Below are positions 41,465 through 63,933 of a stretch of DNA of 64,000 nucleotides, piece after piece. The notes beneath the pieces were generated by a model, which searched no databases, had not been told where the DNA came from, and worked only from the letters and a program-made list of their open reading frames with translations. Made by a program: the position numbers and the translations under genes. Source of the stretch: Daphnia pulex (taxonomy: Eukaryota; Arthropoda; Branchiopoda; Diplostraca; Daphniidae); NCBI RefSeq assembly GCF_021134715.1, contig NC_060025.1:2108001-2172000 (forward strand). The letters run 5' to 3'. Position 1 is the stretch's first letter, and each line of letters opens with the position of its first letter.

Positions 41465-42562
41465 TTAAACAGTAGACTTGAAAAGCTCCTTCAGCATCTT
41501 GAAACACTGCTCCGGATGACTTTGTTCTGCCTTTTCCCATTCGTCCGTCGCCATCACTTCGCCTGAGAAACGACGAAAAAATTCGACCGCATACTTCTTC
41601 AAATTAAACGCTGGATGGTTTTCATCGGTGATTACAAGTAATTCCAGACAATTTTTTGCCGACATTCGATGAATAAATTGAGTCTCACATTCTATTTTTA
41701 ACTGTTCCAACAGATATTTATCAGCGGCTGCAAGTATTCCAGCAGACATCTTCCCCATCGTTGATTCCGACAGACGGCCAGTGTAGATGAAGCGGAGGAT
41801 TTCGTTGAACACGTCTGGCTCGACGTCTTCAACTTCGATTTGGTTCGTCAAATTTTCTTTAGTTGGATGTTCAAACATAGCGGCAAAAACTGTGCTTCTT
41901 GTTGCCAAAATGTTCTTGTGAGCTTTAAATTTTCGTCCACGGACATTCACGGTGATGTCAGAAAACTTCATGTTTTCGTAGAGTTCTTCTAGGTGAGCAA
42001 CTAGTTGATCGCTGTTGTTGAATGGCTTCTTATGAAAATTTGCTTCTGTAGACGACTTGCCTGACAACACAAACCTGGTTGGAATTAAATTTTCAATCTC
42101 ACAGTAGATGATAAGTTGTCCATTTACGAAACAATTAGATTCCACTAGAGATGTTTTCTCTATCTGAAAAACACAATAAGGTAAACTTGTCTGCTTTGGC
42201 AAATAGTGTTGTTGCGGGAAAATCTTTTCACGGTTTTTATTCGAAATTGCAATCTTCACTCTGACAGGACTACCTGTTTCTTTTTGAGAAGGTATATCCA
42301 GATCGATTTTTATGTCGGGGTCCATATCAGAGAAGTGCAGAATCCATTTCGGATCACCGGTTTTTTCAGGAGAAAACTCAGATGAACGATACTCTCCCCA
42401 GTCTTTAAAAGATTCTACAAAAGCTAGTCGTTTGATGGTCCACTCAAAATCTAATGTAGTAATTTGGTTCTTCGTTTGGCACCAAGTTGATACCATGTAT
42501 GGTGGTGGCAACGTTTCCATGTGTGTTTCTACATTCGCTTTTTTTACTTGATGGTCACTCAT
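41465..42562 (-). CDS. MATH-BTB (SPOP-like) protein 1
   Basis: A single open exon of 365 residues. The start is set at MSDHQVKK (42562) because the paralogues begin MSDQ; the frame is open 17 codons further up but lacks that conservation. A MATH domain covers about residues 30-155 (DFEWTIKRLAF, SPVRVKIAISNKNREKIF, FVNGQLIIYCEIE). A BTB domain runs about 197-300 (NMKFSDITVNVRGRKFKAHK, AAMFEHPTKENL, EDVEPDVFNEILRFIYTG, AAADKYLLEQLK), followed by a short BACK/3-box-like tail. In SPOP the MATH domain binds substrate and BTB plus 3-box bind Cullin-3, so a ubiquitin-ligase adaptor role is inferred. SPOP's nuclear signal tail is absent. The lack of introns, unlike the neighbouring cathepsins, suggests an ancestral retrocopy. 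The upstream palindrome is poorly kept here. Confidence 0.9.
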   Translation of the reverse strand: MSDHQVKKANVETHMETLPPPYMVSTWCQTKNQITTLDFEWTIKRLAFVESFKDWGEYRSSEFSPEKTGDPKWILHFSDMDPDIKIDLDIPSQKETGSPVRVKIAISNKNREKIFPQQHYLPKQTSLPYCVFQIEKTSLVESNCFVNGQLIIYCEIENLIPTRFVLSGKSSTEANFHKKPFNNSDQLVAHLEELYENMKFSDITVNVRGRKFKAHKNILATRSTVFAAMFEHPTKENLTNQIEVEDVEPDVFNEILRFIYTGRLSESTMGKMSAGILAAADKYLLEQLKIECETQFIHRMSAKNCLELLVITDENHPAFNLKKYAVEFFRRFSGEVMATDEWEKAEQSHPEQCFKMLKELFKSTV

Positions 42563-42653
42563 TTTAACTCGGAAACTAATGAGAGCTGTAGCAAATTCAG
42601 GTGCGATAACCACTAAAGAGCCGAGGATCCTTTCGTAACGGCGTACAAAAACG

Positions 42654-42658
42654 ACTGA
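42654..42658 (-). promoter_or_regulatory. Initiator of MATH-BTB gene 1
   Basis: Minus-strand TCAGT within TATCAGTCGTTTTTGT, conserved as TCAGTCGTT-like upstream of the other MATH-BTB genes. Only a half site of the array's palindrome (TTGTCGAAGG, plus-strand reading) is seen near 42720. No TATA box. Confidence 0.4.
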
Positions 42659-43059
42659 TAGACTGAGTGACTAATAACAGGCCAAGTGGGCAACCAATGA
42701 ACCAAAGGACGACGCGGAATTGTCGAAGGGGTGCGTCCACATAAAATACGTCAAGCGATTTTAGCGCTTTTTTTACCCCCTCCCTCGTTTGGTCGTAGCA
42801 TGTAACAAAAAGCTAAACCCCCTTCCTTACAATACGTCACTAAATGCTTAACCCCCCCCCTTTTTTTTTAGAAGAAATAATGTGTCTAAGCTTGTTTTTT
42901 TCTCCCCCATGTCACGCTCCCAAGGCCGAAAATTAAATTTTGTTCTTTCCTAGAGAAAACTTAAAGCGTTTCCCAAAACCCCGGATCATAATCACCTATC
43001 CCTCTTTCTACTCCTTTCACTTGTGATGCTTTATATTGAATGCATCCACGCCGAACATT

Positions 43060-43470
43060 TTATCAGTCAGCGTGGCAATTCATAAATTGGGAACATTGGT
43101 CCACAATTAGAATTGTTTGTTAGACCTGTTTGTTAGTTACAGGTCTCACGTAAATTCGGCGGCCGTTCGCCGTTCGGCTACTGGGCATGTCGGCCACAGG
43201 TTTCCAGCTGAGCATGGTATTTTCCTGAAGTTTGATTAATTGCAATGTTATATCATTAGATTGTTGTAAGCAATAATTATTACAAAAACGTTCGTCTACG
43301 TTTTTCGATTGCCCAAATTGTCAGTTTGTGCTATTCACTGGTGCCCCGTCCTCTTACACGTGGTCATTGCCCACTGCCTTGCCATGCAGGGTAGAAAGAA
43401 AGCAGCCAAGCCAAAGAAATGTTGTTTTCGATTTAGAGCTCTTAATTCTTTTTCTGCTTATGTTTTTTTT
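43060..43470 (+). pseudogene. Degraded copy of the 38.0-38.4 kb fragment
   Basis: Shares with 38005-38360 an upstream block (ATTCATAAATTGG.AACATTGGT), an ATG exon (43187, ending GGTATTTTCC but with the donor GT changed to TG) and the next exon-like block. In that block TGGTGCCCCGTCCTCTTAC parallels TGGCCCCGTCCCCTTAG, and the frame carrying KQPSQ.N is preserved. The intervening frame is shifted and the first donor is lost. Confidence 0.5.
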
Positions 43471-44145: not shown

Positions 44146-45524
44146 TTAAATTATGTTAGCAGTGCGAACGCATCTTTCAATCATGCACAAATCGACACCT
44201 CGTCGGACAAGAACGTAGCCGGCAGCTCCCCACTTATTACCCCACGAATTACGTACGACCTTATTTTAATTAAGTCGAAAAATGTAGTTGTTACGAATGA
44301 CAGGTAATCTTTGCTTTCGTATTTACCCAATAATTAACGCCATTCTGAGTGCCATATCCGACGATGTTCATAGCGTGAGCCCTTCTGGGAACGCAATTGT
44401 TGTCGTTAAAAACTCCACTTCTGCATGTCGCAAGCAATAAATTATTTTAAATGTCATTTTTTCTAAATATTTTCTTTTGATCATTTACTTGTAGTTCATG
44501 AAACTATCGGGCAGTTGCATATAAATGGAAAGGATTCGTTTTCCCGACAAGATGCTCATCATGGCCTTTGTATCTCCTGCTGGAACCCATTGTACAGGAT
44601 TTGAAGAGGAAATTTGAGCTCCAATCGTCATATTCCGTGTGCTAAACTTGCAATCTCCAGCCTTAGCTATGTAAGGGTAGGATTTTTCGTCAGTTTGGCC
44701 GCAGTTGGAAGCCAAGTATTGCCAAGCCTCGTGTTCCCATCCGCCAGAGCAGCCGTTAGCCCGGCTGCAGTCTATTATCTGCTGCTCGCTGATAAGCAGT
44801 AAAAAGGTATTTTAATAATTCATAATCATTTTAAACCATTCATAAGTTTGTGTTACCTGAAGTCGAGACTCTTTCCTCCTTGTTTTTTACATTTGCCAAA
44901 TTCGACGACTGCAGTGGCGGAATGAGCCCAGCAACTACCACATCTACCTTGGTTCCTTACCGGCGGCATGCACGAATCAGTACGGTAGTCAACCTGAATA
45001 AAATTTTCTAATTCAATTTAACGAACTTGAATTTCCTGTCTACAGTAGTACAACTGACTTACTCTGCTCAGTTGTCGCTCAGACGAGATACCAGGCAAAT
45101 TGGAAGGTGGGACCGGTTCAAGTGCTCCGAAAAAAGATTGCTGTTCGTCTTCAGTCTTTCAAATGAACAAGGAAAGCAGACTTCATGATTCACCTTACGG
45201 AAAGATTCAAAGTGTAAGTAATTACCATAACTGAGAAGGCATTGTGGTCCATTTTGTAAGTGGCGTTTGTTTTAGAGTTGTGCTCCGTAATCTTGGCGTG
45301 CGTTTCTTCAAAGATGGATTTGCGTATTCCTAATTCGGCTTTCGTTTGAACTCCTAACGGGAATTCGTCCTTTGGAGTGAAAGTATTTGTGGAATTAGTT
45401 TATTGTACTAAACATTTAAAAGTACCTGATATTTCTTCCAAGCAGCTTCCACATCGTCGGAAGCTTGGATATTAATTGCCCCACAAATAAGGACTAAGGT
45501 GAGAACGCAAAAACTTTTTGCCAT
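44146..45524 (-). CDS. Cathepsin L-like cysteine protease, copy C
   Basis: Seven coding exons (45426-45524, 45226-45369, 45063-45155, 44857-44993, 44489-44788, 44327-44420, 44146-44259) give 326 residues. A signal peptide (MAKSFCVLTLVLICGAINIQ) leads the I29 propeptide (ELGIRKSIFEETHAKITEHN). The papain domain starts at [20 protein letters not shown]. The active Cys lies in GSCWAHSA, where the usual Phe is His, shared with copy D. CSGGW replaces the usual CGGG. The His (RRAHAMNIVGYG) and Asn (VRNSWG) are present. Unlike copies A, B, D and E it has no obvious TATA box or UTR intron acceptor before the ATG, so its promoter may have been replaced at a duplication border. Coding capacity is intact. 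Confidence 0.88.
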
Positions 45525-45772
45525 TTTTATTTCGGTAAATAGAATTGAGCTAACCAACAATCAAGAAATAATCGGTAAACAAAAAATTTCTGTACACGAT
45601 TTCCAAAAATATTTAAAATAAGGTGTACAAAAAGGAGTGTAGAGCTTGATGGGTGCGAACCCGTCGGGAGTTAATTTTGGACTCGCTAACAGGATACGAT
45701 GGTGATTAGCATACACGTATCGATAGCTTTACGTACTGCGAAATCCTTGAAAAGTATTATTTGATGTGGAAT

Positions 45773-45933
45773 TGTAGCCAGATATCAAACAAGCGAAAGC
45801 TGCGTACCTAACAGATGGACTCGGCAAATAGTCACGGTCTGTTGGCTGGATCTGTCTATATGGGTTTAACTATATTGTTGACAAAGGTTCAGTCCAGCCC
45901 TTCAACTCGCAGCTTTCCTGTATTCACAACCAT
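45773..45933. repeat. Intergenic block duplicated from 41047-41208
   Basis: Nearly identical to the block at 41047-41208. It separates cathepsin copy C from the broken MATH-BTB gene at 45965. Confidence 0.75.
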
Positions 45934-45964
45934 AAAAAACTCGATCACAATTTTCTGCCGACGT

Positions 45965-46863
45965 TTAATGGGAAAATTGAGTCTCGCATTCCATTTTTAA
46001 CTGTTCCAACAGATATTTATCGGCGGCTGCAAGTATTCCGGCGGACATCTTCCCCATCGTTGACTCCGACAGACGACCAGTGTAGATGAAGCGAAGGATT
46101 TCGTTAAACACGGCCGGCTCGACGACTTCAACTTCGACTTGGTTAGTTAAATTTTCTTTCGTTGGGTGCTCAAACATCGCGAAAAAAATGTACTTCTTGT
46201 GGCTAAAATGCTCTTGTGGGCTTGAAACTGACGTCCACGGATGTTAAAAGTAAAGTCTGAAAATTTCATAGTTTCAAAGAGTTCTTCCAGTTCGGCAACT
46301 AGTTGATCGCTATTGTTGAACGGTTTCTCATGGAAATCGGCCTCTGAAGACAACTTGCCTGATTGCAGGTCTTTTTGGAATGAAAGTTTCGATCTCTCGG
46401 TATATTGTAAGCTTCCCATTCATTAAACACCTAGAATTCGCAAAAAAAATTACTCGATTTGAAAAACACAGTGTGGTAAACGTGTATGCTGTGGTAAACA
46501 GTTTTGTTGCGGGTAAATTATTTCGCGTTTTTTATTTGAAATGGCAATCTATCGGACGGGATTACCTAATGGATTGTTGGGATAAAGCATTTCCAGGTTG
46601 ACCTTGATATTGGATCCCTCGTCCAACAATCGCAGAATCCATTTTGAACCAGTGAGTTTTTTCGTGAAAAAATTCAGATGAACGATAGCTTCCCCAGTTT
46701 TCAAACGGTTTTAGGAACTCAAATTGGTTAATGGTCCACTCAAATTTTAACTGCTCAACTTCGCCGCAACTTCGTTCTGCGTTTGGCACAAAAGTATGCT
46801 ACTTGGTGGTGGCAGAATTTCAAACTGCGTTTCCACAGCTTCTTTATTTTGTTCGTCGCTCAT
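45965..46863 (-). pseudogene. MATH-BTB pseudogene 2
   Basis: Starts like its relatives (MSDEQNKEA at 46863), but frameshifts break it near 46790-46740, in the second half of the MATH domain (about 46560-46420) and in the BTB domain near 46180-46150. The reading ends at ECETQFSH and a stop at 45965, so the C-terminal BACK-like tail is gone. Its upstream region still has an initiator (TCAGT, 46991-46987) and a degenerate palindrome (TCGTTGAATAGCGA, 47037-47050). Confidence 0.85.
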
Positions 46864-46986
46864 TTTTAACACTGAAAAACAAATGAGATTATTCCGGATT
46901 ATTCAGAAATTTTATGTAATTCAGCTTTGATTGACACTTGATACAAACTCCTCATGAAAACCCTTTCTTAACAAAGAACAAAAACG

Positions 46987-47598: not shown

Positions 47599-49048
47599 TT
47601 AAACAATGTTGGTAGTGCGAGAATAGTCTTCAATCATGCACAAGTCAACGCCTCTGCGAACGAGAATGTATCCGGCAGCTCCCCATCCACTTCCCCATGA
47701 ATTACGGACGACCTTGATTTAATTAATTTTGCAATGATAAGAATTACATTAAATTAATAAAATTGTGTTTAGGAAGTAGGAGTTGATTGAACTATTTACC
47801 CAATAATCGACACCATTCAAAGTTCCATAACCAACAACATTCATAGCGTGAGCATTATTTTCTACACAACTGGCGTCATTAAAAACTCCACTCCTATATC
47901 AAAACACCGATGATAATCATTTTAACACTTATCTGAAAATTAAACTTATCGCAGATTTTACTTGTAATTAAAGAAGCTTGAAGGCAGCTGCATGTAAATG
48001 GAAAGGATCCTTCCGCTGGCCAGAACAGTCTTCATACCAGAAATGGTGCCAACCCATTCCACAGGAGAAGAGGAAGAAACTTGAGCTCCAATCGCCACGA
48101 CCGAAGTATTTAAATGGCATGTTCCAACAACAGCTGTGTAAGGGTAGGAACTTTCGGTCATTTGTCCGCCGTTAGATGCCAAATATTGCCAAGCTTCGTG
48201 TTCCCATCCACCCGAGCAGCCGTTATCCCGGCTGCAGTCCACTAATTGCTGTTCACTATTTAGCGAATGCTCATTAATCCTGTTGCATCGTCGAGATTGA
48301 AACCATTTCGTTTACCTCAGATCACGAGCAGATCCGCCGTACTTCTTACATTTGCCAAATTCAACCACTGCAGTGGCGGAATGAGCCCAGCAACTACCAC
48401 ATCCACCTTGGTTCCTTACCGGTGGCATGCAGGAATTAGTACGGTAATCAACCTATAGCAACATGTTTTAAAATTTGTAATATTTTGCCAATACTTTCAC
48501 CGTGTTCTGTGCCTAACTTACAGTAGTGGGCAGTACTCGGCTAGAAACCCCGCGAACCTCATTAGGACGGACAGGTTTGAAAGCACCCATGTAACTTTGT
48601 TTCTCTTCATCGGTCTTATTAAATGAACACGAAACCAAATATCGTTTAAATATTCCGGTCGACATTTCAGGCAAATGACTGAATCATGCCAAGAAAGAAA
48701 CAACTGGAATATTCTGTTACCAAAACTGAGAAGGAGTTGTGAGCCAATTGGTAAGTGACGTCCTTTTTAGAGTTGTGCTTCTTAATCCTGGCGTGCGTTT
48801 CGTTGAAAATGGATTTGCGCAGTCCATATTCGGCTTTAGTTTGAACTCCCAACGGGTGATTAGCCTTATTTATTTGGATTGAAAGGAACAATTTTGAAAA
48901 ATTATTCAACAGTCAAATCAATAACTGAATTGTAGTGTTCAGATTTTACCAGATATTCCTGCCAAGCGACTTCTAAATCATCGGAGGCCTGGAGTCCGGC
49001 AGCCAGTGTCATCATCACAATTACGACGGCGAAGGTAAATTTACCCAT
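47599..49048 (-). CDS. Cathepsin L-like cysteine protease, copy D
   Basis: Seven coding exons (48950-49048, 48721-48864, 48522-48614, 48316-48452, 47962-48255, 47800-47893, 47599-47712) give 324 residues. Signal peptide [21 protein letters not shown]29 propeptide ([20 protein letters not shown]), and a papain domain from [20 protein letters not shown]. The active Cys is in GSCWAHSA (Phe to His, as in copy C). The rest reads [16 protein letters not shown], the His loop [12 protein letters not shown] and the Asn [10 protein letters not shown]. The start MGK is preferred over an ATG three codons up because a 5' UTR intron acceptor (AAAAG|AATGGG) falls between them. It is closest to copy E, and both descend from the unit that also carries a MATH-BTB gene. 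Predicted active. Confidence 0.9.
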
Positions 49049-49049
49049 T

Positions 49050-49215
49050 CTTTTCATACATCCAAATAAATACAGTTTTATATCGATTCCTATTCTATAA
49101 AAGTTTTAGCTAGCTACAACTTACCTCAGGAAACCAATTTTCTCGTAGAGTCGAATGTGTGGCTGAATCACAGAGAGAAGGATGAAAAATGATCATGAAA
49201 TCTCGGACTTTTATA
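49050..49215 (-). promoter_or_regulatory. TATA box and UTR intron of cathepsin copy D
   Basis: Minus-strand TATAAAAG at 49215-49208, a UTR exon ending at 49125 (CTGAG|GTAAG), and a UTR intron 49050-49124 ending one base before the ATG. Confidence 0.6.
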
Positions 49216-49479: not shown

Positions 49480-49757
49480 TAAGCTTTTGGTCGCTTGGCC
49501 GCCGTTAGATTACAAATATTTCCAAGCTTCGTGTTTCCATCCGCCTGAGCAGCCGTTGACTCGGCAAGTAGCTGCAGTCCACCAATTGCCGTTGACTGCA
49601 GTCTACCAATTGTTGTTCACTATTTACCAATCAAGAGCGCATTTAATTTTTTGTAATTTTTCCCTAGATTGAACGTAATTTCATCTTCCTCAGATCGCGA
49701 GCAGTTCCGCCGGCCTTCTTGCATTTGCAAATTTAACCACTGCGGACTGCGGTGGCA
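49480..49757 (-). pseudogene. Cathepsin fragment (parts of exons 4 and 5)
   Basis: Closely matches cathepsin copy E around 51357-51580: the start of exon 5 with an internal duplication (the CTGCAGTCCACCAATTG motif twice), the intron and the 3' part of exon 4. It ends abruptly at about 49757, fused to MATH-BTB coding sequence. Confidence 0.8.
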
Positions 49758-50437
49758 TACAAGCTCCTTTAGTATCTGATAAACTGTTCCGAATCATCTT
49801 GTTCGGTCATTTTCCAATCGTCTGTCGCCATCACTTCGCTGGAGAAACTATGGAAGAATTCGACCGCATAGTTCCTCAAATGAAACGCTGGATGCCATTC
49901 ATGGGTGATAAAAAGCAATTCCAAACAATTTTCTGCCGACATTCGATGAATTTAAATGAGTCTCACATTCCGATTTTAACTGTTCCGACAGATATTTATC
50001 CGCAAATATTCCAGCGGACATTTTCCCCATCACGTTGACTCCGACACTTTTCCCGTGTAAAGGAAACGGAGGATTTCATTAAACTCGGCTCCACGTCTTC
50101 AATTTCGACTTGGTGAGTTAAATTTTCTTTTGTTAGGGGCCGAAACATTGCGGCAAAATATTTACTCGTGGCTAAGATGCTTTTGTGGGCTTTAAATTGA
50201 CATCCACGGACGTTAATACTGACGTCGGAAGATTTCATAGTTTCAAAGATTTTTTCCAGTTCGCCAATTAGTTGATCACTGTTGCTGATTGGTTTCTCAT
50301 GGAAATCGTCCTCTGAAGACAACTTGCCTGATAGATAGTATATTATAGGTTTCTTTGGAATGAAAGTTTCGATCGCACAGTAAATGGTAAGCTTCCGTTC
50401 ATTAAACGTACCCAGAATTCATCAACAACATTTTCTG
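49758..50437 (-). pseudogene. MATH-BTB pseudogene 3 (truncated, fused both sides to cathepsin sequence)
   Basis: Covers the end of the MATH domain, the BTB domain and the tail. An open piece of 108 codons (49996-50322) reads QLIGELEKIFETMKSSDVSI and FKAHKSILATSKYFAAMF, with frameshifts around it. Most of the MATH domain is missing. On the high-coordinate side it abuts, at 50438, the start of a cathepsin exon 6 with part of intron 5 (ACTCCACTCCTGCG, GATGATAATCATTTTGACGC), as in copy D near 47885-47935. The locus is a mosaic of the two families. Confidence 0.8.
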
Positions 50438-50815
50438 GACTCCACTCCTGCGTAGCACCGATGATAATCATTTTGACGCTTATTTGAATTTTAGTTTTTC
50501 TTTAAGAAACCTTTTTTTGCTGCCACTCAACTAGATAACCTTTCTCTTGTGATGAACAGGCTAATGACTGCTTTAATTCTAATGCAGAATTAGATTGAAT
50601 TAACTCTGATCCCTTAATTTATTAGTTTCTTTTAACTTGTTATTTTAATATTATTCAGAGCATTTATGGGGCGTCTATTTAAATGGAAAGTAATGCTGAA
50701 GAAAAATTGCCAAATCGATGCCAAATAATTTTATTACCATAAACCGAAAAATCAAAACCCATAACAATTAAACCACGTATGTATACGTGATGACTGATTT
50801 TTTAAATATTATTCC

Positions 50816-52233
50816 TTAAACAATATTGGTAGTGCGAGAATAGTATTCAATCATGCACAAGTCAACACCTCTGCGAACGAGAACGTATCCGGCAGCTCCC
50901 CATCCACTACCCCACGAATTACGGACGACCTTGATTTAATTCATTTCACAGTTATTAGAATTGGACTACATTTATAGAATTGTGTTCAGGAAGTAGGAGT
51001 TGATTGAACTATTTACCCAATAATCGACACCACTCAAAGCGCCATAACCAACGACGTTCATGGCGTGAGCATTATTTGCCACGCAGTTGGTGTCATAGAA
51101 AACTCCACTCCTGCAAAATATCAGTGATGATTAATCATTTCCCCCACTAATCAAATGCACCGTGTTTACTTGTAGTTGAAGAAGGTTGAGGGGAGCTGCA
51201 TGTAAATGGAAAGGATCCTTCCGCTGGCCAGAACAGTCTTCATTTTATCAACGGTGCCAACCCATTCCACATAAGCTGAAGAAGAAACTTTAGCACCGAT
51301 CGACATGGTCGAAGTACTGAAACGGCATGTTCCATTTTTAGCTGTGTAAGCGTAGGAGCTTTCGGTCGCTTGACCACCGTTAGCTGACAAATATTTCCAA
51401 GCTTCGTGTTCCCATCCACCTGAGCAGCCGTTAACTCGGCTGCAGTCCACCAATTGCTGTTCACTGTTAACCAATCAAGAGCGCATTTAATTTTTGTAAC
51501 TTTTCACTAGATTGAACGTCATTTCATCTACCTCAGATCGCGAGCAGTTCCGCCGGCCTTTTTGCACTTGCCAAATTCAACCACTGCGGTGGCAGAGAAT
51601 GTCCAGCAACTTCCACATCCGCCTTGGTTTCTTACCTTTGGCAAGCACGCATCAGTACGGTAATCAATCTAAAACAACATGTTTTTACATTTAAGTAGCA
51701 ATTTGTCGATAGTTTTGTTCCGTGTCTAACTTACGGAAGTGGGCAGTTGTCGGCTAGAAATTTGGCGAAGCAAAGTAGGACGTTCGGGCTTCATACCACC
51801 CAAACGAGCTTGTTTCTCATCTTCGGTCTTAAAGTAATTGCAACGAAATGGAAAGTTTTGAGTTCACCGCAGGGGACAATTAACTGAATGACAGAGAGAA
51901 AAAGAAGATAATTACCATAGTTGAGAACTCATTGTGTTCCATTTTGAAAGGAGCAGCTGCATTAGAGTTGTGCTTGGCAATCCTGGCATGCGTTTCGCCA
52001 AAGAGGAATTTGCGGTGTCCGTATTCGGCCTTAGTTTGAACTCCCATCGGGAATCTAGACTAAATGATCGATTGAAAACAAAATAATATTGAATATCACA
52101 TCACAAAATTGAGTAAAAATAACGTTTTGAATTTTACCAGGTAATCTTGCCAAGCGACTTCCAAATCCTCGGATGCGTGGAGTCCTGCAGCCAATGCCAT
52201 CATAATCACGACGACGAAGGTAAATTTACCCAT
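50816..52233 (-). CDS. Cathepsin L-like cysteine protease, copy E
   Basis: Seven coding exons (52138-52233, 51916-52059, 51735-51827, 51532-51668, 51170-51463, 51017-51110, 50816-50929) give 323 residues. Signal peptide [21 protein letters not shown]29 propeptide ([20 protein letters not shown]), and a papain domain from [20 protein letters not shown]. The active-site motif is GSCWTFSA, with Thr for the usual Ala but the ordinary Phe, unlike copies C and D. His [12 protein letters not shown] and Asn [10 protein letters not shown] are conserved. Exon sizes match copy D except for a one-codon shorter exon 1. The preceding 49.5-50.5 kb mosaic contains scraps of a near copy of this gene. Predicted active. 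Confidence 0.9.
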
Positions 52234-52234
52234 T

Positions 52235-52434
52235 CTTTTAAAACAGCAAAATGACAGTCATTTATGGCAAATGAATGTTTACATAGACACATATATATAC
52301 ATTCCATTTCTATTCTCTAAAAATGTTAGTTAACTTTAACTTACCTCAGAAACCAATTTTGTTGCGGAGTCGACTGTGTGGTTGAAACGCAGAGAGAAGG
52401 ATGAAAAATGCGTCCGAAACCCTTCTCTTTTATA
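52235..52434 (-). promoter_or_regulatory. TATA box and UTR intron of cathepsin copy E
   Basis: Minus-strand TATAAAAG at 52434-52427, a UTR exon ending at 52345 (CTGAG|GTAAG), and a UTR intron 52235-52344 ending one base before the ATG. Confidence 0.6.
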
Positions 52435-53155: not shown

Positions 53156-53260
53156 ACATCACAGGAATAACGATCTATGTCCTTTTTATTCAAACGTTAT
53201 AATAGAAATTTAAAATTCTAAGTGATAAAATTGTCTTTCCCCATCTAGAAGACCAGATAA

Positions 53261-53563
53261 TCAACATTCAAAATTTATTTTAACAAGAGATTTGACAAGT
53301 TCCTTTAGGATAGTGAGACATAGCTCTGGATGACCTTGTTCGGCCTTTTCCCATTCGTCCGTCGCCATCACTTCGCCTGAGAAATTACGGAAGAATTCGA
53401 CCGCATACTTCTTCAAATAAAAAGCTGGATGATGTTCATGGGTATTTAAAGTAATTCCAAGACAATTTTCTGCCGACATTCGATGAATTAATTGAGTCTC
53501 ACATTCCGATTTCAACTGTTCCAACAGATATTTATCCGCAACCGCAAGAATTCCGATGCACAT
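53261..53563 (-). pseudogene. MATH-BTB pseudogene 4 (C-terminal third only)
   Basis: Encodes the end of the BTB domain and the tail (GILAVADKYLLEQLKSECET, YAVEFFRNFSGEVMATDEWE, LTILKELVKSLV). The MATH domain and most of the BTB domain are absent, with a break near 53557. The usual stop after KSLV is mutated, so the frame runs five codons further (KINFEC). Confidence 0.85.
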
Positions 53564-54034: not shown

Positions 54035-55120
54035 CTATACAAGGGATTTGACAAGGTCCATCAACATACTGTTAAACTGTTCGAGATCTTCTTGTTCGGC
54101 CTTTTTCCAATCGTCCATCGCCATCACTTCGCCTGCAAATTGACGGAAGAATTCGACCGCATATTTCCTCAAATGAAACGCTGGGTGGTGTTCATCGGTG
54201 ATCAAAAGCAATCCCAGGCAATTTTCTGCCGACATTCGATTGGTCAATTGAGTTTCACATTCCATTTTTAATTGTTCCAACAGATATTTATCGGCAACCG
54301 CAAGTATTCCGGCGGGCATCTTCCCCATCGACGACTCCGACACTTTCCCAGTGTAGATGAAGCGGAGAATTTCGTGAAACACGGCCGGCTCGACGTCTTC
54401 AACTTCGATTCGGTTCGTCAAATTTTCTTTAGTTGGATGTTCGAACATCGCGTCAAAATATTTACTTCTTGCGACCAAAATGCTCTTGTGGGCTTTAAAT
54501 TGACGTCCACGGACGTTAAAGATGATGTCAGAAAATTTCGTAGTTTCAAAGAGTTCTTCCAGTTCGGCAACTACTAGTCGATCGCTGTTGCTGAATAGTT
54601 TCTCATCCAAATCGGCCTCTATAGCCAACTTCTTTGATAGTTTTTCAGGAATTATTTGAATTAAACTTTCGATCACACAGTTGATAGTAAGATTCCCATT
54701 AACAAAACACTCGGATTCCATCAACGTTTTTTTCTTCAGCTGAAATACGCAATATGGGAGATTTGTAAATTGATGTAAACCGTGTTTTTGCTGGAAAATC
54801 TTTTCTCGTTTTTTATTGGAAATCGCAATCGTCACACGGACGGGATTACGTAATGGGTTGTTAGGAAAGGAACTTTGCAGATTGATCATCAGATTGGATC
54901 CCTGGTCAAAAAAGAATAGAGTCCATTTTGATTCTGGGGTTTTTTCGTGGGAAAAATAAGCTGAAGAATAACTTGAACCCCAGTTTTCAAAAGATTTGAG
55001 AATCGCAAACTGTTGAAAGGTCCACTCAAATTTAAGTTGAACAAGTTCGGTCTGCGTTTGGCACCAAACTATGCTTCCTGCTGATGGCGGAGCTGCTTTA
55101 TTTAATTTCTGGTCGCTCAT
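54035..55120 (-). CDS. MATH-BTB (SPOP-like) protein 5
   Basis: A single exon of 361 residues starting MSDQKLNKAAPPSAGSIVWC. The MATH domain spans about residues 25-155 (LKFEWTFQQFAILKSFENWG, NPVRVTIAISNKKREKIF, FVNGNLTINCVIES). The BTB domain begins near 190 (TKFSDIIFNVRGRQFKAHKS, DAMFEHPTKENL, EDVEPAVFHEILRFIYTGKV, AVADKYLLEQLKMECETQL), followed by a BACK-like tail ending LVKSLV. Probable Cullin-3 substrate adaptor by analogy with SPOP. It is intact with its own initiator and palindrome upstream. Some MATH loops differ from the paralogues (for example QGSNLMINLQSSFPNN), so substrates may differ. Confidence 0.9.
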   Translation of the reverse strand: MSDQKLNKAAPPSAGSIVWCQTQTELVQLKFEWTFQQFAILKSFENWGSSYSSAYFSHEKTPESKWTLFFFDQGSNLMINLQSSFPNNPLRNPVRVTIAISNKKREKIFQQKHGLHQFTNLPYCVFQLKKKTLMESECFVNGNLTINCVIESLIQIIPEKLSKKLAIEADLDEKLFSNSDRLVVAELEELFETTKFSDIIFNVRGRQFKAHKSILVARSKYFDAMFEHPTKENLTNRIEVEDVEPAVFHEILRFIYTGKVSESSMGKMPAGILAVADKYLLEQLKMECETQLTNRMSAENCLGLLLITDEHHPAFHLRKYAVEFFRQFAGEVMAMDDWKKAEQEDLEQFNSMLMDLVKSLV

Positions 55121-55439: not shown

Positions 55440-55535
55440 ACACGCGATAATAATGTTACCGGGAAATTGCATAACACTTGTATGCGTGGAGATTGGCAGC
55501 CAACTATCACAATCACGGCAACGAAGGTAAATTTA
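55440..55535 (-). pseudogene. Cathepsin remnant: 3' flank joined to signal-peptide exon
   Basis: Sequence like the 3' flank of the intact cathepsins runs straight into a piece of the signal-peptide exon (GTAAATTTACCTTCGTTGCC on the minus strand). The whole catalytic body is deleted. The same junction type recurs at 61800-61915. Confidence 0.65.
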
Positions 55536-56339
55536 CATATTTTGTTTTTCTCGTTTATCCATTATTATTTAGTATGTCCTGTTTGTATCATTCCCATCAA
55601 TTTTGTTTGCTCCACAAGTATTTTAAATTTTAGGGGAAGTATAAAACTATTCGTGTTTTCCGTGTTACTCTCCCATTGATGAAATCGACATCTGCCAAAG
55701 TTCCCCAGCTGCGTTTATGTATGCCGACCGGATGGCATTGATCGCAAAGTGAAAGATCAGCCATTGGTTATAAATGTCTTATAATTGCCATTGGGGAAAA
55801 GTTAAACGTTCTGTTCCTCAAATGCAGTTAGTATAGCTCATTACTAATTCTTTCTGGGAAGTTGTGTCTAGAAGAAATTGGGGACTACTTAATTAATTAC
55901 TCTGTTTGTAGTCAGAAAATGGGATCGATAGACATATTTAGCCTGACTAGCGCTTTTGTTACATCCTTAATTATCCAAACCAAAACTCTACTAAAAACTT
56001 GCAAACTAAAAACTAAACTTTCTCAATTTTTTTTCCCCCTTAGTTGACAATTATCTTGGAATAAAATTACGTAACCCCATCCTTTCAAAGAAAAAGGCCG
56101 GGAAAGGTAAAGACAACGCCCCCAAAGTTTTTCCAAACTTGGTTAAGATATTTGCGTTTTGCTCCACCAGCCTCCGACAAACCATTTCTTAAATAATCCC
56201 TTTTATACTTCATTAAGTTAATGGAATAACATTATCCAAAATTATTCCACCCCAACAGGATTTCATTACTGTTACTTCACACACCCTGCGTTACTTGTAT
56301 GTTACTTAATAAAAATGCTGCCTGTATATGCTTTATAAC

Positions 56340-56680
56340 AGGTTTCACGTTGAGCAGATACTTACATTTACCCGCAGCCTTTACCAAATTCAACCACCGC
56401 AGGCACCACAGGTGCAGAGATATTCCAGCAGCTTCCACACCCGCTTCCATTCCTTACCAGTAGTGAGCACGAATAAGTAAGGAAGACAATCGTATATAGC
56501 AGCATGTTTTTATTTTTAGCAATAATTTGTCAGGAATATTTTCATCTTGTTCTGTGCCCATTAACTTACAGAACTGAGCTATGCTCGGCTACTAACAGTG
56601 CACACTACCCAATAAGAAGACATTCAGGCAACAAAGCACCCGCATCGATGTTTAGTCTTAAAAAAATTTGAATTCAACCC
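56340..56680 (-). pseudogene. Cathepsin fragment (exons 4 and 3)
   Basis: An exon 4 remnant spans about 56365-56490 and shows the minus-strand string TGTGGAAGCTGCTGGAATAT, which retains a GSCW-like reading. It has insertions such as AGGCACCACAGGTGC and a damaged acceptor. The intron and an exon 3 remnant follow (56570-56665). The signal-peptide, propeptide and His/Asn exons are absent. Confidence 0.7.
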
Positions 56681-56917: not shown

Positions 56918-58078
56918 CTAAACAAGAGATTTGACAAGATCTTGCAGCACACTGAAACATTTTTCAGGATTATCTTTTTTGGCCTTTTCCCAATCCCTCG
57001 TCGCCATCACTTCGCTGGAGAAATTGCGGAAGAATTCGACCGCATACTGTCTCAAATGAAACGCTGGATGATGTTCATGGGTGTTCAAAAGTAATTCCAG
57101 ACAATTTTCTACCGACATTCGATGAATGATATGAGTCTCACACTCAATTTTCAATTGATCCAATAGATATTTATCCGCAACCGCAAATATTTCAAAGGGC
57201 ATGTTCTCCATCGTCGACTCCGACACTTTTCCAGTGTAGATGAAGCGGAGGATTTCATTGAACACGTCCGGCTCAACATCTTCAACTTCGACTTGGTTCG
57301 TCAAATTTTCTTGAGTTGGGTGCTCAAACATCGCAGTGAAAAATTTACTTCTTGAGGCCAAAATGCTTTTGTGGGCTTTAAATTGGCGTCCACGGACGTT
57401 GAAGGCGATGTCGGAAAATTTCAAATCTCCAAAGAGTCCTGTTAGTTGGGCAACTAGTTGGTCGCTGTTGCCGAATGGTTTCTCATCCAAATTAGCCACT
57501 GTAGACGACTTGCCCGACAGTACAGGATTTTTCAATACGAAACTTTCAATCTCACAGTAGATGGTGAGTTTCCCATTGACGAAGCACCGGGACTCTACTA
57601 AACTTTTTTTTGCGATTTGAAAAACACAGCAAGGCAATTTTGTATATTGCGGTAAACATTGTTGTTGCGGGAAAATCTGTTCGCGTTTTCTATTCGAAAT
57701 GGCAATCTTCACTCGGACGGGATTTGCTAATTGATTGGGATAAGGCATTTCCAGGCTGATCTTGATATTGGCTCCCTCGTCAGACAATCGCAGAGTCCAC
57801 TTCGACTCAGGGGTTTTTTCGTGAAAAAATTGAGACGAATAATAATCTCCCCATTTTTCAAAAGTTTTTAGGAACGCTAATTGGTGAATGGTCCACTCAA
57901 ACTTTAATTGAACAACTTCGTTTTGCGTTTGGCACCAAGCTATGCTACCTGGTGTTGGCAGAATTTCTTTATTTGCCTGTAAAATGAAATCACCTTGTTT
58001 TGCCGAAAGCGTTTGGCACCGAACTACTCTTCTATTTGGTGGTGGAATAATTTCTTTAGTTGCTTGTTGGGCGCTCAT
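56918..58078 (-). CDS. MATH-BTB (SPOP-like) protein 6 with duplicated N-terminal leader
   Basis: A single exon of 386 residues, about 21-25 longer than its paralogues. The N-terminal leader is present twice: MSAQQATKEIIPPPNRRVVR then CQT, and again QANKEILPTPGSIAWCQT, offset by 28 codons. This is an 84-bp tandem duplication with some divergence. The MATH domain then runs about 55-180 (LKFEWTIHQLAFLKTFEKWG, NPVRVKIAISNRKREQIF) and the BTB domain from about 216 (LKFSDIAFNVRGRQFKAHKS, TAMFEHPTQENL, EDVEPDVFNEILRFIYTG), followed by the BACK-like tail. Intact, with a strong upstream palindrome pair. Probable Cullin-3 adaptor by analogy with SPOP. Confidence 0.9.
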   Translation of the reverse strand: MSAQQATKEIIPPPNRRVVRCQTLSAKQGDFILQANKEILPTPGSIAWCQTQNEVVQLKFEWTIHQLAFLKTFEKWGDYYSSQFFHEKTPESKWTLRLSDEGANIKISLEMPYPNQLANPVRVKIAISNRKREQIFPQQQCLPQYTKLPCCVFQIAKKSLVESRCFVNGKLTIYCEIESFVLKNPVLSGKSSTVANLDEKPFGNSDQLVAQLTGLFGDLKFSDIAFNVRGRQFKAHKSILASRSKFFTAMFEHPTQENLTNQVEVEDVEPDVFNEILRFIYTGKVSESTMENMPFEIFAVADKYLLDQLKIECETHIIHRMSVENCLELLLNTHEHHPAFHLRQYAVEFFRNFSSEVMATRDWEKAKKDNPEKCFSVLQDLVKSLV

Positions 58079-58219: not shown

Positions 58220-58888
58220 GAGTTAATCGACGTATACGTTCTCTTGACGACTATAGTTTCCTTGAAAATACTACCCCACCTCTCATAATTTCAAGATAAA
58301 CGTGTCAGGTAAGAAAAAAAAAATAGCAGTAGGCCTACGTTTGATATAGGCCTAAATTTCGTTTTCGTAATTCTTACAAAACACAATTATATTTTGGTTT
58401 TTGCCTAGAGAAAGCATAACAGCTTAACGTGTTTCCCGGCACTCCGGACATCACTTTAGACCTTTTGAAGTACAGGCCAAATGCCAATTGCCTTTGAGAA
58501 ATTCGAACGTGTAAAAGTTAAAAATTCTGATTCTCAAGTGCAGTCAGTTGCTTCTCATTAATTCTTTCTTTTAATTTGTTGTATAATTATTATTCTGTTT
58601 AATAGTCGAAAAATGTGATTGATAGTCATATTTTCAGCCTGGCTAGCGTGATCCTTATAGCTAATCCATCGAAACATTTAAATTGAATTCATTCCAGCTG
58701 GATTGAAACACATCATAGTGCCTTGCGGATCCATCGAGGGATCGAGGAGCAGTTCCGAGCAGTTCGAGGAGCTAGCACATTAGATCGAGGAAAGTTCCGT
58801 CCGACTTTAACATTTACCAAATGTATGTTGAAACTGAAAAGCGATAACTCAACATAAATTTACGTCAAAATAACTGTAAACATTTTAC

Positions 58889-59185
58889 TAGATATGCCTG
58901 CCAAACGGATTCAAAATCTTCGGCTGCGTGGGGAGTCTTGCAGCGAGTGCCATCATCACAATCACGGCGACGAAGGTAAATTTACCCATTCTGTACCTGC
59001 ATTACTGCATTAGTATCCCATGTATTAATGGCAAATGAAGGTTGACATTTATTTCTATAATATTTTGTGTTAACTTGAACATACCTGTAGAAAGCTAAGT
59101 TGTTCTTGTAGGGTTGGCTGAGAGGTTGAATCGCAAAGAGAAGGCCAAATTTCCATCCGAAACCTCCGCCTTTTTCTTATACAGT
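58889..59185 (-). pseudogene. Cathepsin remnant: promoter, 5' UTR and frameshifted exon 1
   Basis: Exon 1 starts MGKFTFVAVIVMMALAA as in copies D and E. One extra C then shifts the frame (RLPTQPKILN) to a stop. A UTR intron and a TATA-like TATAAG (about 59177-59182) are still recognisable. No further cathepsin exon follows before the next MATH-BTB 5' region. Confidence 0.8.
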
Positions 59186-60166
59186 TCTCATTATTGACTC
59201 TGCTGTTCATGCACCCTGATTGATAGACAATTAGGGACTTAGTAAAAAGCATTATACCTGTCCCATCATCAAGATAGCGTTAACCTTCTTATCCAGGCTA
59301 ACTTATGCATTCGTTATGACTACGTTATTTTTGGTGGAGATCCGAATGAATTTTTTTGCTTGAATTTTCGCCATCTAACTAAGGATCTTTGAATCTAGAA
59401 ATTTTGCTGTAAACATTTGTTGGAATAGCGCTGACGGAGTGACGGGAAATTGATAGAAAAAGTTGATCTCTTTAACATCGAGTTTTATTGCCGTAAACTG
59501 ACAAAGCTAAACCCATGGCACCATATAGTATCTTTCAAATAGGAACAGTGGGACAATAGGAAACGTACATCTATGCGTGTGGACGTTCAGTCAGGACGTA
59601 AGGTGGATGGGCTTCAAGATGGGCTTCCAGCGTCACTTTTTGTTTTGGTGATGAGCTACGTACGTAAATGATTCCCATAATAATATTAAGGAGTAATATA
59701 TTAAAAACCTAATAATGTCGTTGAACCTACAGATTAACTAAAAGCTAATAAAAACTAAAAAGCTAAGGACCCATTACCCATTAGATAGACGTTTAAATAA
59801 CATAGGCATAGCACCCAAATAACAATATTTAGTCTTAACAAGATTCAAACGAAACCAAATTTTATTCAGATATTCTGTGATCAAATGATTAGAGCACGCC
59901 GAAGAAGAGACGTTTTTCGATCGAAATTACCGAAACTGAAAAATCATAAAGGCTCGTTTTGGAAGAAATTCCTATTTTTAGTTGGGCTTCTTTGCATTCA
60001 CAGGTCTTCAAACTCGTCAACATTTTTGTATTTCTGAATGAAAGAATCACATGAAGCAATAAAACACGTGGCTAAATTGCATTTCCATTTGAACGTAAAC
60101 ATGAAAATCAAACATTCTATGACCATATTTTTTCCATCGAACAGATAATAAACATTCAAAATTTAT
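59186..60166. other. Intergenic remnants of the duplication unit
   Basis: Contains a block like the cathepsin 3' flank (GTAAACTGACAAAGCTAAACCCA near 59494, matched near 62262) and other low-copy blocks shared with 62240-62640. No gene seen. Confidence 0.5.
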
Positions 60167-61261
60167 CTAAACAAGAGACTTGACAAGCAACTTCAGGATA
60201 GTGAGACATAGCTCCGGATGACTTTTTTCTGTCTTTTCCCATTCGTCCGTCGCCATCACTTCGCCTGAGAAACGACGGAAGAATTCGACCGCGTACTTCT
60301 TCAAATGAAACGCTGGGTGGTGTTCATCGGTGATCAAAAGTAATTCTAGACAATTCTCTGCCGACATCCGATGAATTAATTGAGTTTCACATTCCATTTT
60401 TAACTGTTCCAACAGATATTTATCGGCGGCTGCAAGTATTCCAGCGGACATCTTCCTCATCGTTGACTCCGACAGACGACCGGTGTAGATGTAGCGGAGG
60501 ATTTCACCAAACACGGCTGGATCAACGTCTTTAATTTCGACTTGGTGAGTTAAATTTTCTTTTGTCGGGTGCTCAAACATAGCGGCAAAAACTGTGCTTC
60601 TTGTGGCCAAAATGTTTTTGTGGGCTTGAAATCGACGTCCACGGACATTCACGGTGATGTCAGAAAACTTCATGTTGTCGTAGAGTTCTTCTAGTTGAGC
60701 AACCAGTTGATCGCTGTTGCTGAAAGATTTCTCAGGGATATATGCTGCCTCTGTAGACGGCTTGCCTGATAGAATTACAGGTACCTGTGCAATGAAACTT
60801 TCGATCTCACAGTCGATGGTGAGTTTCCCATTGACGAAGCACTCGGATTCCACCAATACTTTTTTCTCGATCTGATAAACACAAAAAGGCAATTGAGTAT
60901 AGCGAGGTAAACTGTGGTGTTGCGAAAAAATCTTTTCGCGTTTTGTACTTAAAAGCGCAATCGTCACTCGGACAGGAGTTTCCAATGGGGTATTAGTGTT
61001 GTTGAAATAGGGCCTATTCAGGTTGACTTTCACATGGTTGCCCTGGCCGAACAACCGCAGAATCCACCTTGAACGAGTGGTGTTTTCGTGATGAAATTCA
61101 GATGAATCATAATAATCTCCCCATTTTTCAAAAGAATTTAGAAAAGCAAAATGTTGAAAGGTCCACTCAAACTTTAATTGAATCACTTGGTTCTGCGTTT
61201 GGCAACAAATCATGCTACCCGGTGGGGGCAGAGCTTCTTTATTTGCTTGTTGGTCGCTCAT
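60167..61261 (-). CDS. MATH-BTB (SPOP-like) protein 7
   Basis: A single exon of 364 residues, start set at MSDQQANKEALPPPGSMICC (61261) by comparison with paralogues; the frame is open 16 codons further up, across the putative initiator side. The MATH domain (LKFEWTFQHFAFLNSFEKWG, TPVRVTIALLSTKREKIF) has an insertion-rich loop (RPYFNNTNTPLE). The BTB domain (NMKFSDITVNVRGRRFQAHK, AAMFEHPTKENL, DVDPAVFGEILRYIYTGRLS) is almost identical to that of protein 1, including RSTVFAAMF and GRLSEST, while the MATH domains differ widely. Probable Cullin-3 adaptor by analogy with SPOP. Confidence 0.9.
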   Translation of the reverse strand: MSDQQANKEALPPPGSMICCQTQNQVIQLKFEWTFQHFAFLNSFEKWGDYYDSSEFHHENTTRSRWILRLFGQGNHVKVNLNRPYFNNTNTPLETPVRVTIALLSTKREKIFSQHHSLPRYTQLPFCVYQIEKKVLVESECFVNGKLTIDCEIESFIAQVPVILSGKPSTEAAYIPEKSFSNSDQLVAQLEELYDNMKFSDITVNVRGRRFQAHKNILATRSTVFAAMFEHPTKENLTHQVEIKDVDPAVFGEILRYIYTGRLSESTMRKMSAGILAAADKYLLEQLKMECETQLIHRMSAENCLELLLITDEHHPAFHLKKYAVEFFRRFSGEVMATDEWEKTEKSHPELCLTILKLLVKSLV

Positions 61262-61314: not shown

Positions 61315-61360
61315 ACTGAGGTATTCCACCAAAGACGAAATAGAAATCGTCGAACGACGA
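61315..61360 (-). promoter_or_regulatory. Promoter of MATH-BTB gene 7
   Basis: Initiator TCAGT at 61319-61315 on the minus strand (putative +1 at 61317) and the perfect palindromic core TCGTCGAACGACGA at 61347-61360, about 30-43 bp upstream. Confidence 0.6.
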
Positions 61361-61799: not shown

Positions 61800-61915
61800 G
61801 AATGGCAATCTTTTTCTACACGCGAAAATAACTGTTGGTGGAAAATTGGATTCGTGAAGTTCGGCAGCCGACGCCATCGTCACAATCACGGCGGCGAAGG
61901 TAAATTTACATATTC
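61800..61915 (-). pseudogene. Cathepsin remnant: 3' flank joined to signal-peptide exon (second case)
   Basis: As at 55440-55535, cathepsin 3' flank sequence leads directly into a signal-peptide exon piece (minus-strand GTAAATTTACCTTCGCCGCC, reading KFTFAAVIVTMASAAE). The start codon is changed to ATATGT. Confidence 0.65.
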
Positions 61916-62761
61916 CGCCTTTTCCGCTGATTAATATTTAACGAGTAATTTCCTGTCTTTGTATCTCATCAATCCCATCAATTTTTTTTATTCTGCAAAT
62001 ATTTAAAACGCCAGCCGAAGTCTAAAAAATTTTACGTTTTCCGTGTTACTCTCCCGTTGATGTATAATCGACATCGGCCAAAGTCTCACCAGACGCAACT
62101 AGTATTATTCCGACCGGATGGCATTTATCACAAAGTTAAAGATTACAAAAATTGGTTATCGAGAAATAGTAAAAATTTTTGTTCCCTAAATGCTGTTTAG
62201 TAGATCACCATTAATTCTTTGTGGGAAGTTGTATGCGGGAGAAGTTAAAATATTGCTGTAAACTGACAAAGCTAAGCCCAAGGCACCGTAGTATCGTGCA
62301 AATAGGGAATAGAGGGAAAATAGGAAACGTTAAATCTGTGCGTGCTGACGTTTGACACAAAGGGAAGGTAGGCAGGCTTTAAGCTTAACTCTTATGGGGG
62401 AAATAAGCTACGTTAAAAAACTAAACTAGTAACCCATTAGAAAAATCTTCTTTCAACAAAGCACCCAAATAACGATGTTGTTTAGTCTTTAAAAAATTCG
62501 AATGAAAGTAATTATTATTGGGATATTCCGTGACCAAATGATTAAATTACGTCGAGGAAGAGACAATTTTAAAAATCGAAATTAGGCTTCCTTGACTCGC
62601 AGCTTTTCAAATTCGTCAACATCTTTGTATTTCTGAAGGAAGGGAAATCACATGATACAATCAAACACGGCTAAGTTATTTTATGATTCAAACATTATAA
62701 TGAAAATTAATCATTTCAAGTAATGATTATTTTTTACAAATAATCAACTTTCCAAATTGAT
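61916..62761. other. Intergenic remnants of the duplication unit
   Basis: Blocks similar to 55560-55870 (CCGTGTTACTCTCCC, GACCGGATGGCATT) and to 59494-59580. No gene seen. Confidence 0.5.
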
Positions 62762-63790
62762 CTAAACAAGCGATTTGACAAGCTCCTTCAGGATAGTGAG
62801 ACACAGCTCCGGATGACCTTGCTCGGCCTTTTCCCATTCGTCCGTCGCCATCACTTCGCCTGAAAATTGACGGAAGAATTCGACCGCGTACTTCCTCAAA
62901 TAAAACGCCGGATGGTGTTCATGAGTGTTCAAAAGTAATTCCAGACAATTTTCTGCCGACATTCGATGAATTATTTGAGTCTCACATTCCGATTTTAACT
63001 GTTCCAACAGATATTTATCCGCAACCGCAAGTATTCCGGCGGGCATGTTCTCCATCTTTGACTCCGACACTTTCCCAGTGTAGATGTAGCGGAGGATTTC
63101 TTGAAACACGTCCGGCTCGACGTCTTCAATTTCGACTTGGTTCGTCAAATTTTCTTTTGTCGGGTGCTCAAACATCGCGCCAAAATATTGACTTCTCGTG
63201 GCCAAAATGCTCTTGTGGGCCTTAAATTGAAGTCCACGGACGTTAATAGTAAAGTCGGAGAATTTCATCGTTTCATAGAGTTCTTCTAGATGAGCAATTC
63301 GTTGATCGCTGTTGTTGAATGGTTTATTATGAAGATTTGCAACTGTAGACGACTTGCTTAAAAGTGCAAGATTTTTTAAAATGGAATACTCCATCTCAAA
63401 GTAGAATGTGAGTTTCCCATTGACGAAACACTCAGATTCCACCAACATTTGGTTGGCGATGTCAAAAACACCTAAAGGCGCATATGCATGCCGACTTAGA
63501 GTGTGTTGTTGTGGCAAAAATTTTTCGCGTTTTTTATCCAAAATACCAATGTTCACTCGGACGTTATCTAATTGTTTGTTGGGATAAGACATTTCCAGGT
63601 TGACCTTCAAATTGGATCCGTCGTTAATCAATCGCAGAAACCATTTTGTACTGGGGTCTTTTTCGTGAAAAAATTGAGACGAAGAATAACCTCCTTTTCC
63701 TTTTTCAAACTGGGGAATGGGCCACTCGTACTTTAATTGAATAGCTACGGTCTGCGTTTGACACCGCAACATGCTTCTTGGTGGTGGCAT
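62762..63790 (-). CDS. MATH-BTB (SPOP-like) protein 8, altered N-terminus
   Basis: A single open exon of 342 residues. The first in-frame ATG gives MPPPRSMLRCQTQTVAIQLK; the usual MSDQ.NKE leader is missing, replaced upstream by unrelated sequence with no matching start. The MATH domain (LKYEWPIPQFEKGKGGYSSS) lacks several residues after the first strand (no FLKSFE.WG) and is otherwise complete (VRVNIGILDKKREKFL). The BTB domain (MKFSDFTINVRGLQFKAHKS, GAMFEHPTKENL, EDVEPDVFQEILRYIYTG) and tail are intact. Two palindromes lie upstream, but the initiator is altered. It may be a functional gene with a shorter leader or one beginning to decay. Confidence 0.8.
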   Translation of the reverse strand: MPPPRSMLRCQTQTVAIQLKYEWPIPQFEKGKGGYSSSQFFHEKDPSTKWFLRLINDGSNLKVNLEMSYPNKQLDNVRVNIGILDKKREKFLPQQHTLSRHAYAPLGVFDIANQMLVESECFVNGKLTFYFEMEYSILKNLALLSKSSTVANLHNKPFNNSDQRIAHLEELYETMKFSDFTINVRGLQFKAHKSILATRSQYFGAMFEHPTKENLTNQVEIEDVEPDVFQEILRYIYTGKVSESKMENMPAGILAVADKYLLEQLKSECETQIIHRMSAENCLELLLNTHEHHPAFYLRKYAVEFFRQFSGEVMATDEWEKAEQGHPELCLTILKELVKSLV

Positions 63791-63898
63791 AATTTCGTCA
63801 ACGAAATCTGTTAGTATAATAAAAACTGATCAGTAAGAGCGAACAAAAACGACTACGAGACCAGGCAGAGCAGCCAGCCACCAAAGACGAAATAGCAA

Positions 63899-63933
63899 TC
63901 GTCGAACGACGTGAGTTGATCGTCGAACGACGA
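63899..63933 (-). promoter_or_regulatory. Two array palindromes upstream of MATH-BTB gene 8
   Basis: TCGTCGAACGACGT at 63899-63912 and the perfect TCGTCGAACGACGA at 63920-63933, with a third half site ATCGTCG near 63940. The initiator usually found downstream reads GTAGTCGTT instead of TCAGTCGTT (about 63846-63854). Confidence 0.55.

Follow-up and report, generated by a model that had tools for sequence, protein, structure and literature searches.

The mixed array and its two gene families

The stretch analysed here, referred to as the window, comprises 64,000 nucleotides of the Daphnia pulex genome (assembly GCF_021134715.1, contig NC_060025.1, here C9:2108001-2172000) and carries a mixed tandem array of BTB adaptor genes and cathepsin L-type protease genes. 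The genome searched amounted to 133.2 Mb in 13 contigs. The array spans window positions 40,951-63,790, and every copy of both families is on the minus strand. It includes eight single-exon, SPOP-like BTB copies, five open and three broken, together with three intact cathepsins of seven exons each and seven cathepsin fragments. Cathepsin sequence occupies six of the seven intervals separating successive BTB copies and also the left flank. An earlier note on this DNA had listed eight MATH-BTB copies (five open, three broken) alternating with three intact and at least six fragmentary cathepsins on the minus strand, and had placed cathepsins alone at the left (29-37 kb). The recount agrees with it, and the two left cathepsins have no BTB match nearby. 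To the right, at 64-84 kb, no tblastn match to either family was found at E 0.05. The copies and their spacers are listed below; the second locus named there is C9:3192353-3203078.

29059-30566, minus: BTB-free left cathepsin
33982-35368, minus: BTB-free left cathepsin
40951-41053, minus: cathepsin relic (exon 2); tblastn E 2e-4; 86% to second locus; 89% over 80 bp to cathepsin A
41054-41464, minus: spacer J1, BTB1 3' end to cathepsin relic; 41054-41215 is 84% over 163 bp to J2; 81% over 320 bp to second locus
41465-42562, minus: BTB1, open single-exon SPOP-like gene
44149-45524, minus: cathepsin A, intact, 7 exons; 88% over 1973 bp (flanks included) to second locus
45525-45946, minus: spacer J2, BTB2 remnant to cathepsin A; compared stretch 45480-45946; 87% over 475 bp to second locus; 84% over 163 bp to J1
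45947-46888, minus: BTB2, broken; in-frame stops; DNA match reaching 46888
47602-49057, minus: cathepsin B, intact, 7 exons; intron 3 GT donor is the second-listed option
49484-49745, minus: cathepsin fragment, exons 4-5; 81% over 265 bp to cathepsin C; ~14 bp from BTB3 remnant
49759-50418, minus: BTB3, broken
50819-52233, minus: cathepsin C, intact, 7 exons; PF00112 and PF08246 detected
52972-53132, minus: cathepsin fragment, exons 3-4; 77% over 162 bp to cathepsin B
53250-53563, minus: BTB4, 3' remnant, broken; 91% to BTB8 3' end
54035-55120, minus: BTB5, open
55482-55545, minus: cathepsin exon 1 (5' end) relic, upstream of BTB5
56380-56617, minus: cathepsin fragment, exons 3-4, downstream of BTB6
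56918-58078, minus: BTB6, open
58777-59225, minus: relic of a cathepsin's promoter side and exon 1; weak match to exon 4 at 58777-58822; 75% over 397 bp to second-locus cathepsin
60167-61261, minus: BTB7, open
61855-61915, minus: cathepsin exon 1 (5' end) relic, upstream of BTB7
62762-63790, minus: BTB8, open

Short cathepsin exon matches also lie between the two left cathepsins, at 31555-32607 (exon 6, E 0.03; exon 2, E 1e-4), and are probably another decayed copy.

The BTB/POZ domain (PF00651) was detected in all five open window copies, at E 9e-25 to 2e-27. A Pfam scan of the same five copies at E up to 10, in which HMMER filters remove most rows above E 0.1, gave no row for the MATH models PF00917 or PF22486, and genome scans with these two models gave 1 and 7 places, none within the array. 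A profile of the five open proteins aligns to human SPOP residues 17-355 at E 3e-56, and the N-terminal half by itself finds its best SPOP match at residues 17-76 (E 7e-7). The BACK-type C-terminal region, PF24570, is below its cut-off in three of the five, and in the full-length profile the region is aligned to SPOP. Because of these full-length and N-terminal alignments, and despite the lack of a Pfam MATH match, the array BTBs are taken as SPOP-like adaptors in which the MATH half has diverged strongly. The earlier label "MATH-BTB" is thus secured by Pfam for its second half; for the first, which Pfam does not recognise, it derives from the full-length SPOP profile alignment. The products presumably keep the family role of Cul3 adaptors, with a diverged recognition half. 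A fold prediction for the BTB5 protein from five window sequences (mean predicted local distance difference test score 34, predicted template modelling score 0.21) was not used.

Cathepsins A and C have GT-AG models that are open as scripted. Cathepsin B is open only with the second-listed GT donor of intron 3, as judged by eye; the first-pick GC donor gave a stop. Cathepsin C, the one covered by a whole-protein Pfam scan, shows Peptidase_C1 (PF00112, E 2e-57) and the I29 propeptide (PF08246, E 4.5e-7); for A and B the PF00112 matches are to exons. The motifs CGSCW, HAMN and RNSWG, which we take to be those of the catalytic Cys, His and Asn, are present in all three, and a hydrophobic N-terminus was read by eye. 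The products are presumably secreted papain-type proteases in the usual role of the family, as far as sequence can indicate. In array and left cathepsins an intron separates an exon ending DYWV from one starting RNSWG or alike. These exons are contiguous in the remaining cathepsins read, with one ambiguous exception (L004). Exon 4 is whole in array, left and C7 cathepsins and split in the C10 and C9:1.163-Mb genes.

Joint copying and the second locus

The BTB and cathepsin families were copied together, since the DNA between the genes is common to several units and a colinear second locus exists. Spacers J1 and J2 are 84% identical along 163 bp (E 1e-44), and another comparison gave 82% along 200 bp. 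The second mixed locus (C9:3192353-3203078) lies 1.03 Mb from the array on the same chromosome and reads, in order, exon-2 relic, open BTB, broken cathepsin, broken BTB, broken cathepsin, open BTB, exon-1 relic. It matches the array colinearly, with identities of about 70-93%. Its left half corresponds to window 40.95-45.95 kb in pieces of 70-93%, the main blocks being 84% (1375 bp) and 88% (1973 bp), and its right half to 50.3-55.6 kb in pieces of 75-89%. One block, 3198926-3200921 against window 50311-52279 (75% over 2049 bp), covers BTB coding sequence, spacer and a whole cathepsin. A further block is 89% identical over 601 bp, and one 407-bp spacer is 93% identical between array and second locus. 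The earlier note had held that the two families duplicated together and had proposed a self-comparison for shared flanks; the spacer homology between units and the colinear second locus bear out the former, and units do share flanks, J1 and J2 among them.

Outside both loci, among the matches listed (93 cathepsin matches and the 112 BTB candidates that were scored out of 232), the closest cathepsin-BTB pair is 53 kb apart, at C9:1.163 and 1.216 Mb. The large cathepsin cluster at C10:3.07-3.16 Mb contains no BTB among the matches listed. Of the 23 dispersed BTB loci fetched, four were examined for neighbouring cathepsins (L016, L017, L018 and L028); within 1.5 kb of them no match is convincing, the best being E 0.05 over ten residues.

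To control for chance, 15 BTB flanks were compared with four cathepsins, and shuffled sequences (40 each) with the best of the four only. One flank (dn_Bp3) was dropped, as query and region overlapped. Eight of the 14 valid flanks beat every shuffle and six did not.

The segment at 37854-39558 was suspected of being a transposable element, as it recurs inside the second locus. A genome search returned the second locus and eight short partial matches, and the segment seems to have been carried along by the same segmental copying, not to be a common repeat.

Elsewhere in the window, a 1161-aa open frame at 18582-22067 on the minus strand encodes PVYVAPTTAAP-type repeats, with a 393-bp tandem unit in 5.3 copies, and a smaller open frame with a similar RAPGYNLGYA motif lies at 14318-15013. 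A hAT transposase C-terminal dimerisation region is found at 12589-12999 on the minus strand (E 8.5e-15). The segments 16486-17911 and 25824-27317 match each other in inverted orientation, at about 66% identity, along 1.1 kb and 0.3 kb.

Origin and decay of the array

The BTB tree comprised 26 proteins and omitted L018 and L022 (near twins of used rows), L028 (broken) and L035 (short). A clade in it with support 100/100 unites one C3 copy with the seven open proteins of the array and the second locus. In a tree of 18 sampled cathepsin rows, drawn from many cathepsin places and including five from the C10 cluster, the five array and second-locus cathepsins likewise form a 100/100 clade, which joins the two left cathepsins at 91/95 (not starred). 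Because array and left cathepsins group together and share the DYWV/RNSWG intron, these relations are most naturally read as a BTB gene having entered a cathepsin cluster that was already there.

The BTB gene would have been intronless on arrival. Non-array relatives on C2, C3, C8, C9 and C10 are single open frames in 21 of the 23 fetched, and canonical SPOP at C5:4.38 Mb, identified by eye against the SPOP sequence, has introns; intron loss therefore predates the array locus. The loss, and hence the retroposition step, presumably belongs to the ancestor of the dispersed BTB family and not to the array locus, so that the earlier proposal of a MATH-BTB retrocopy landing here is not upheld. Amplification of the BTB genes appears to have proceeded at the DNA level, because several copies have 5' flanks (BTB5-8 and second-locus BTB 3) and a rare 15-mer in common. 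The 15-mer, CGTCGTTCGACGATT, lies at window 58183, 61345 and 63897 and at C9:3202780, upstream of BTB6, BTB7, BTB8 and second-locus BTB 3 (four of the seven open BTBs). It occurs five times in 133 Mb, the fifth at C7:8441081, and is possibly a promoter element.

Some dispersed relatives show features of their own. The broken BTB copy L028 (C2:8681481-8682356) is about 70-80% identical to array BTBs, in a match that extends ~165 bp past the stop codon; it is apparently an export from the array family, and a poly-A tract sought there by eye was not seen. The pairs at C3:2748811/2754471 and C10:354254/367469, with equal scores and frame lengths, suggest recent duplications; the C3 copy that falls in the array clade belongs to the first of them. 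A larger, separate expansion occupies C7:7.8-8.8 Mb, where many BTB open frames are about 30% identical to array proteins. A scan of viral contigs found no BTB relatives.

Both families are constrained where they survive, given a ratio of nonsynonymous to synonymous divergence (dN/dS) of 0.34-0.50 among the 21 pairs of open BTBs and of about 0.27-0.43 among cathepsins A, B and C. The latter is approximate, as the tblastn exon bounds include a few bases past the splice sites. For the BTBs dN/dS is under 1 in both halves in all pairs, and thus does not show positive selection; in 19 of 21 pairs the MATH half has the greater value. The dS between open BTBs is 0.25-0.66. Long identical runs occur in three of the 21 pairs, all spanning the two loci (p at most 0.001, 2000 permutations), and suggest gene conversion.

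Survival of the copies falls into zones. The stretch at 44-53.6 kb keeps three intact cathepsins beside two cathepsin fragments, and none of its three BTBs is unbroken. At 54-64 kb the four BTBs are open without exception, and each of the four cathepsin units is reduced to a relic. Within the window 5 of 8 BTBs and 3 of 10 cathepsin units are intact (Fisher p 0.34), and over both loci 7 of 11 and 3 of 15 (p 0.04), in a test that takes related copies as independent and in which the seven-exon gene is the larger target for breakage. The earlier view that MATH-BTB genes persist rightward while cathepsins decay fits 54-64 kb; at 44-53.6 kb it is the BTBs that are broken, beside three intact cathepsins. 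The further suggestion that selection later favoured the MATH-BTB member gains a little from the BTBs that outlast cathepsins at 54-64 kb and loses by the reverse pattern at 44-53.6 kb and the constraint on surviving cathepsins.

Taken together, it is very probable that an intronless SPOP-like gene entered a local cathepsin cluster and that the composite was amplified, copied in part to a place 1.03 Mb away, and subjected to conversion and zoned decay. The adaptor gene, already intronless and with its own short 5' flank, would have inserted into the cathepsin L-type cluster on C9. The composite of cathepsin and BTB on the same strand would then have amplified in tandem through unequal exchange between repeats, and a multi-gene block would have been copied along the chromosome. 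BTB segments probably continued to be exchanged by gene conversion, and the copies decayed zone by zone, so that cathepsins survive at 44-53 kb and BTBs at 41-42 and 54-64 kb. We infer the insertion step, the unequal exchange, which of the two loci was copied from the other, and every protein function.

Several observations weigh against this reading. The BTB4-BTB5 interval is without cathepsin sequence. In the shuffle control no cathepsin match above shuffles was obtained upstream of BTB1, BTB8 and second-locus BTB 1 or downstream of BTB5, BTB7 and BTB8, and part of the right-hand BTB run may therefore stem from BTB-only duplications. The C3 copy is nested in the array clade on a long branch, so that the array label needs two changes on the tree, and the broken C2 copy, which is outside the tree, matches array BTBs plus some 3' flank. 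No poly-A tail or target-site duplication was identified in the array, where no dedicated search for them was made, and the insertion step is unseen. The conversion test assumes even rates along the gene.

Alternative explanations

A refinement compatible with amplification of a composite is that the BTB gene landed inside one cathepsin, between exon 1 and exon 3, and that the split gene was amplified. An exon-1 relic lies about 350-600 bp upstream of BTB5, BTB7 and second-locus BTB 3, with the cathepsin likeness ending at the same point in all three, and exon 3-4 relics lie downstream of the BTB4 remnant, BTB6 and second-locus BTB 3. However, both sides are seen only at second-locus BTB 3 and BTB6, and the weak exon 4 match upstream of BTB6 favours two separate decayed cathepsins. 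Such a split is a serious candidate, with chances somewhat short of even. If it occurred, some array BTBs might be transcribed from a captured cathepsin promoter, giving the animal ubiquitin adaptors that diverge fast and are expressed in the gut. Four of the seven open BTBs have an exon-1 relic about 350-800 bp upstream, in agreement with promoter capture, but the 5' flank next to the ATG, common to BTB copies, favours a promoter of their own, and capture is unlikely.

Separate expansion of the two families, with interleaving by repeated independent BTB (retrocopy) insertions among pre-existing cathepsins, would accord with the single exon of every open BTB and with the dispersal of relatives, the four examined having no cathepsin neighbour of note. 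It does not account for inter-gene DNA common to several units or for a colinear multi-gene block elsewhere. Nor are the 5' flanks that BTB5-8 and second-locus BTB 3 have in common, or the rare 15-mer that precedes four open BTBs out of seven, expected of independently inserted mRNA copies. This explanation is accordingly improbable. Functional pairing, in which selection holds proteases and adaptors together, e.g. through shared expression, seems more improbable still. Open copies in both families with dN/dS well below 1 would suit it, but BTB1 and cathepsin A are the only adjacent pair with both members intact, survival being otherwise zoned, and in the 1.5 kb around the C2 and C3 relatives of array BTBs no cathepsin match is convincing. 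An assembly artefact, whether haplotypes laid end to end or misjoined repeats, is the least credible explanation of the array order, as most aligned pieces are about 66-91% identical and dS between open BTBs is 0.25-0.66, too distant for alleles, and no N occurs in the 144 kb of assembled sequence that was read.

Under the preferred reading, amplification of a composite within a cathepsin cluster, the array is a well-preserved composite tandem array of a known kind, formed by the ordinary mechanism of local duplication. The joint expansion of two unrelated families can be explained by linkage alone, without shared function, and the joints, the second copy and the decay can still be read. The locus is thus a tractable site for asking how many of the gene-family "expansions" of comparative genomics are hitchhikers, and it presents a crustacean SPOP-derived adaptor family with a recognition half that changes more quickly than the BTB half. 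No description of this mixed array was found among the matches listed (titles and abstract starts) in the openly licensed literature on Daphnia MATH, BTB, speckle-type POZ or cathepsin L, and the main text of a paper on Daphnia gene-family evolution has no word starting BTB or cathepsin (PMC12102780).

The nearest known parallels are the rodent Tdpoz clusters and the nematode MATH-BTB family, described below. Cysteine proteases, with best matches to cathepsin L, are expanded in D. pulex, and the portion of that report drawn on here mentions no adaptor genes among them (PMC9926121). Human SPOP (PDB 8dws and others) is matched by the array profile over residues 17-355, and the array MATH half, unlike that of SPOP, is not seen by Pfam. 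As described in parts of PMC2724483, rat Rtdpoz and mouse Tdpoz are intronless MATH-BTB (SPOP-like) retrogenes that lie mostly in one local cluster with full-length and truncated copies, the rat cluster covering 2.5 Mb and yielding transcripts with exonised transposable elements. The array resembles them in having multiplied intronless SPOP-like genes and differs in that its unit is composite, no cathepsin partner being mentioned for the rodents in those parts. Nematode MATH-BTB genes have expanded by birth and death, and the half that binds substrates has evolved more quickly than the one that binds Cullin, according to earlier work cited in the section consulted of PMC4334554. The array shares the faster substrate half with the nematode genes, in contrast to which its dN/dS stays under 1 in both halves in 21 of 21 pairs.

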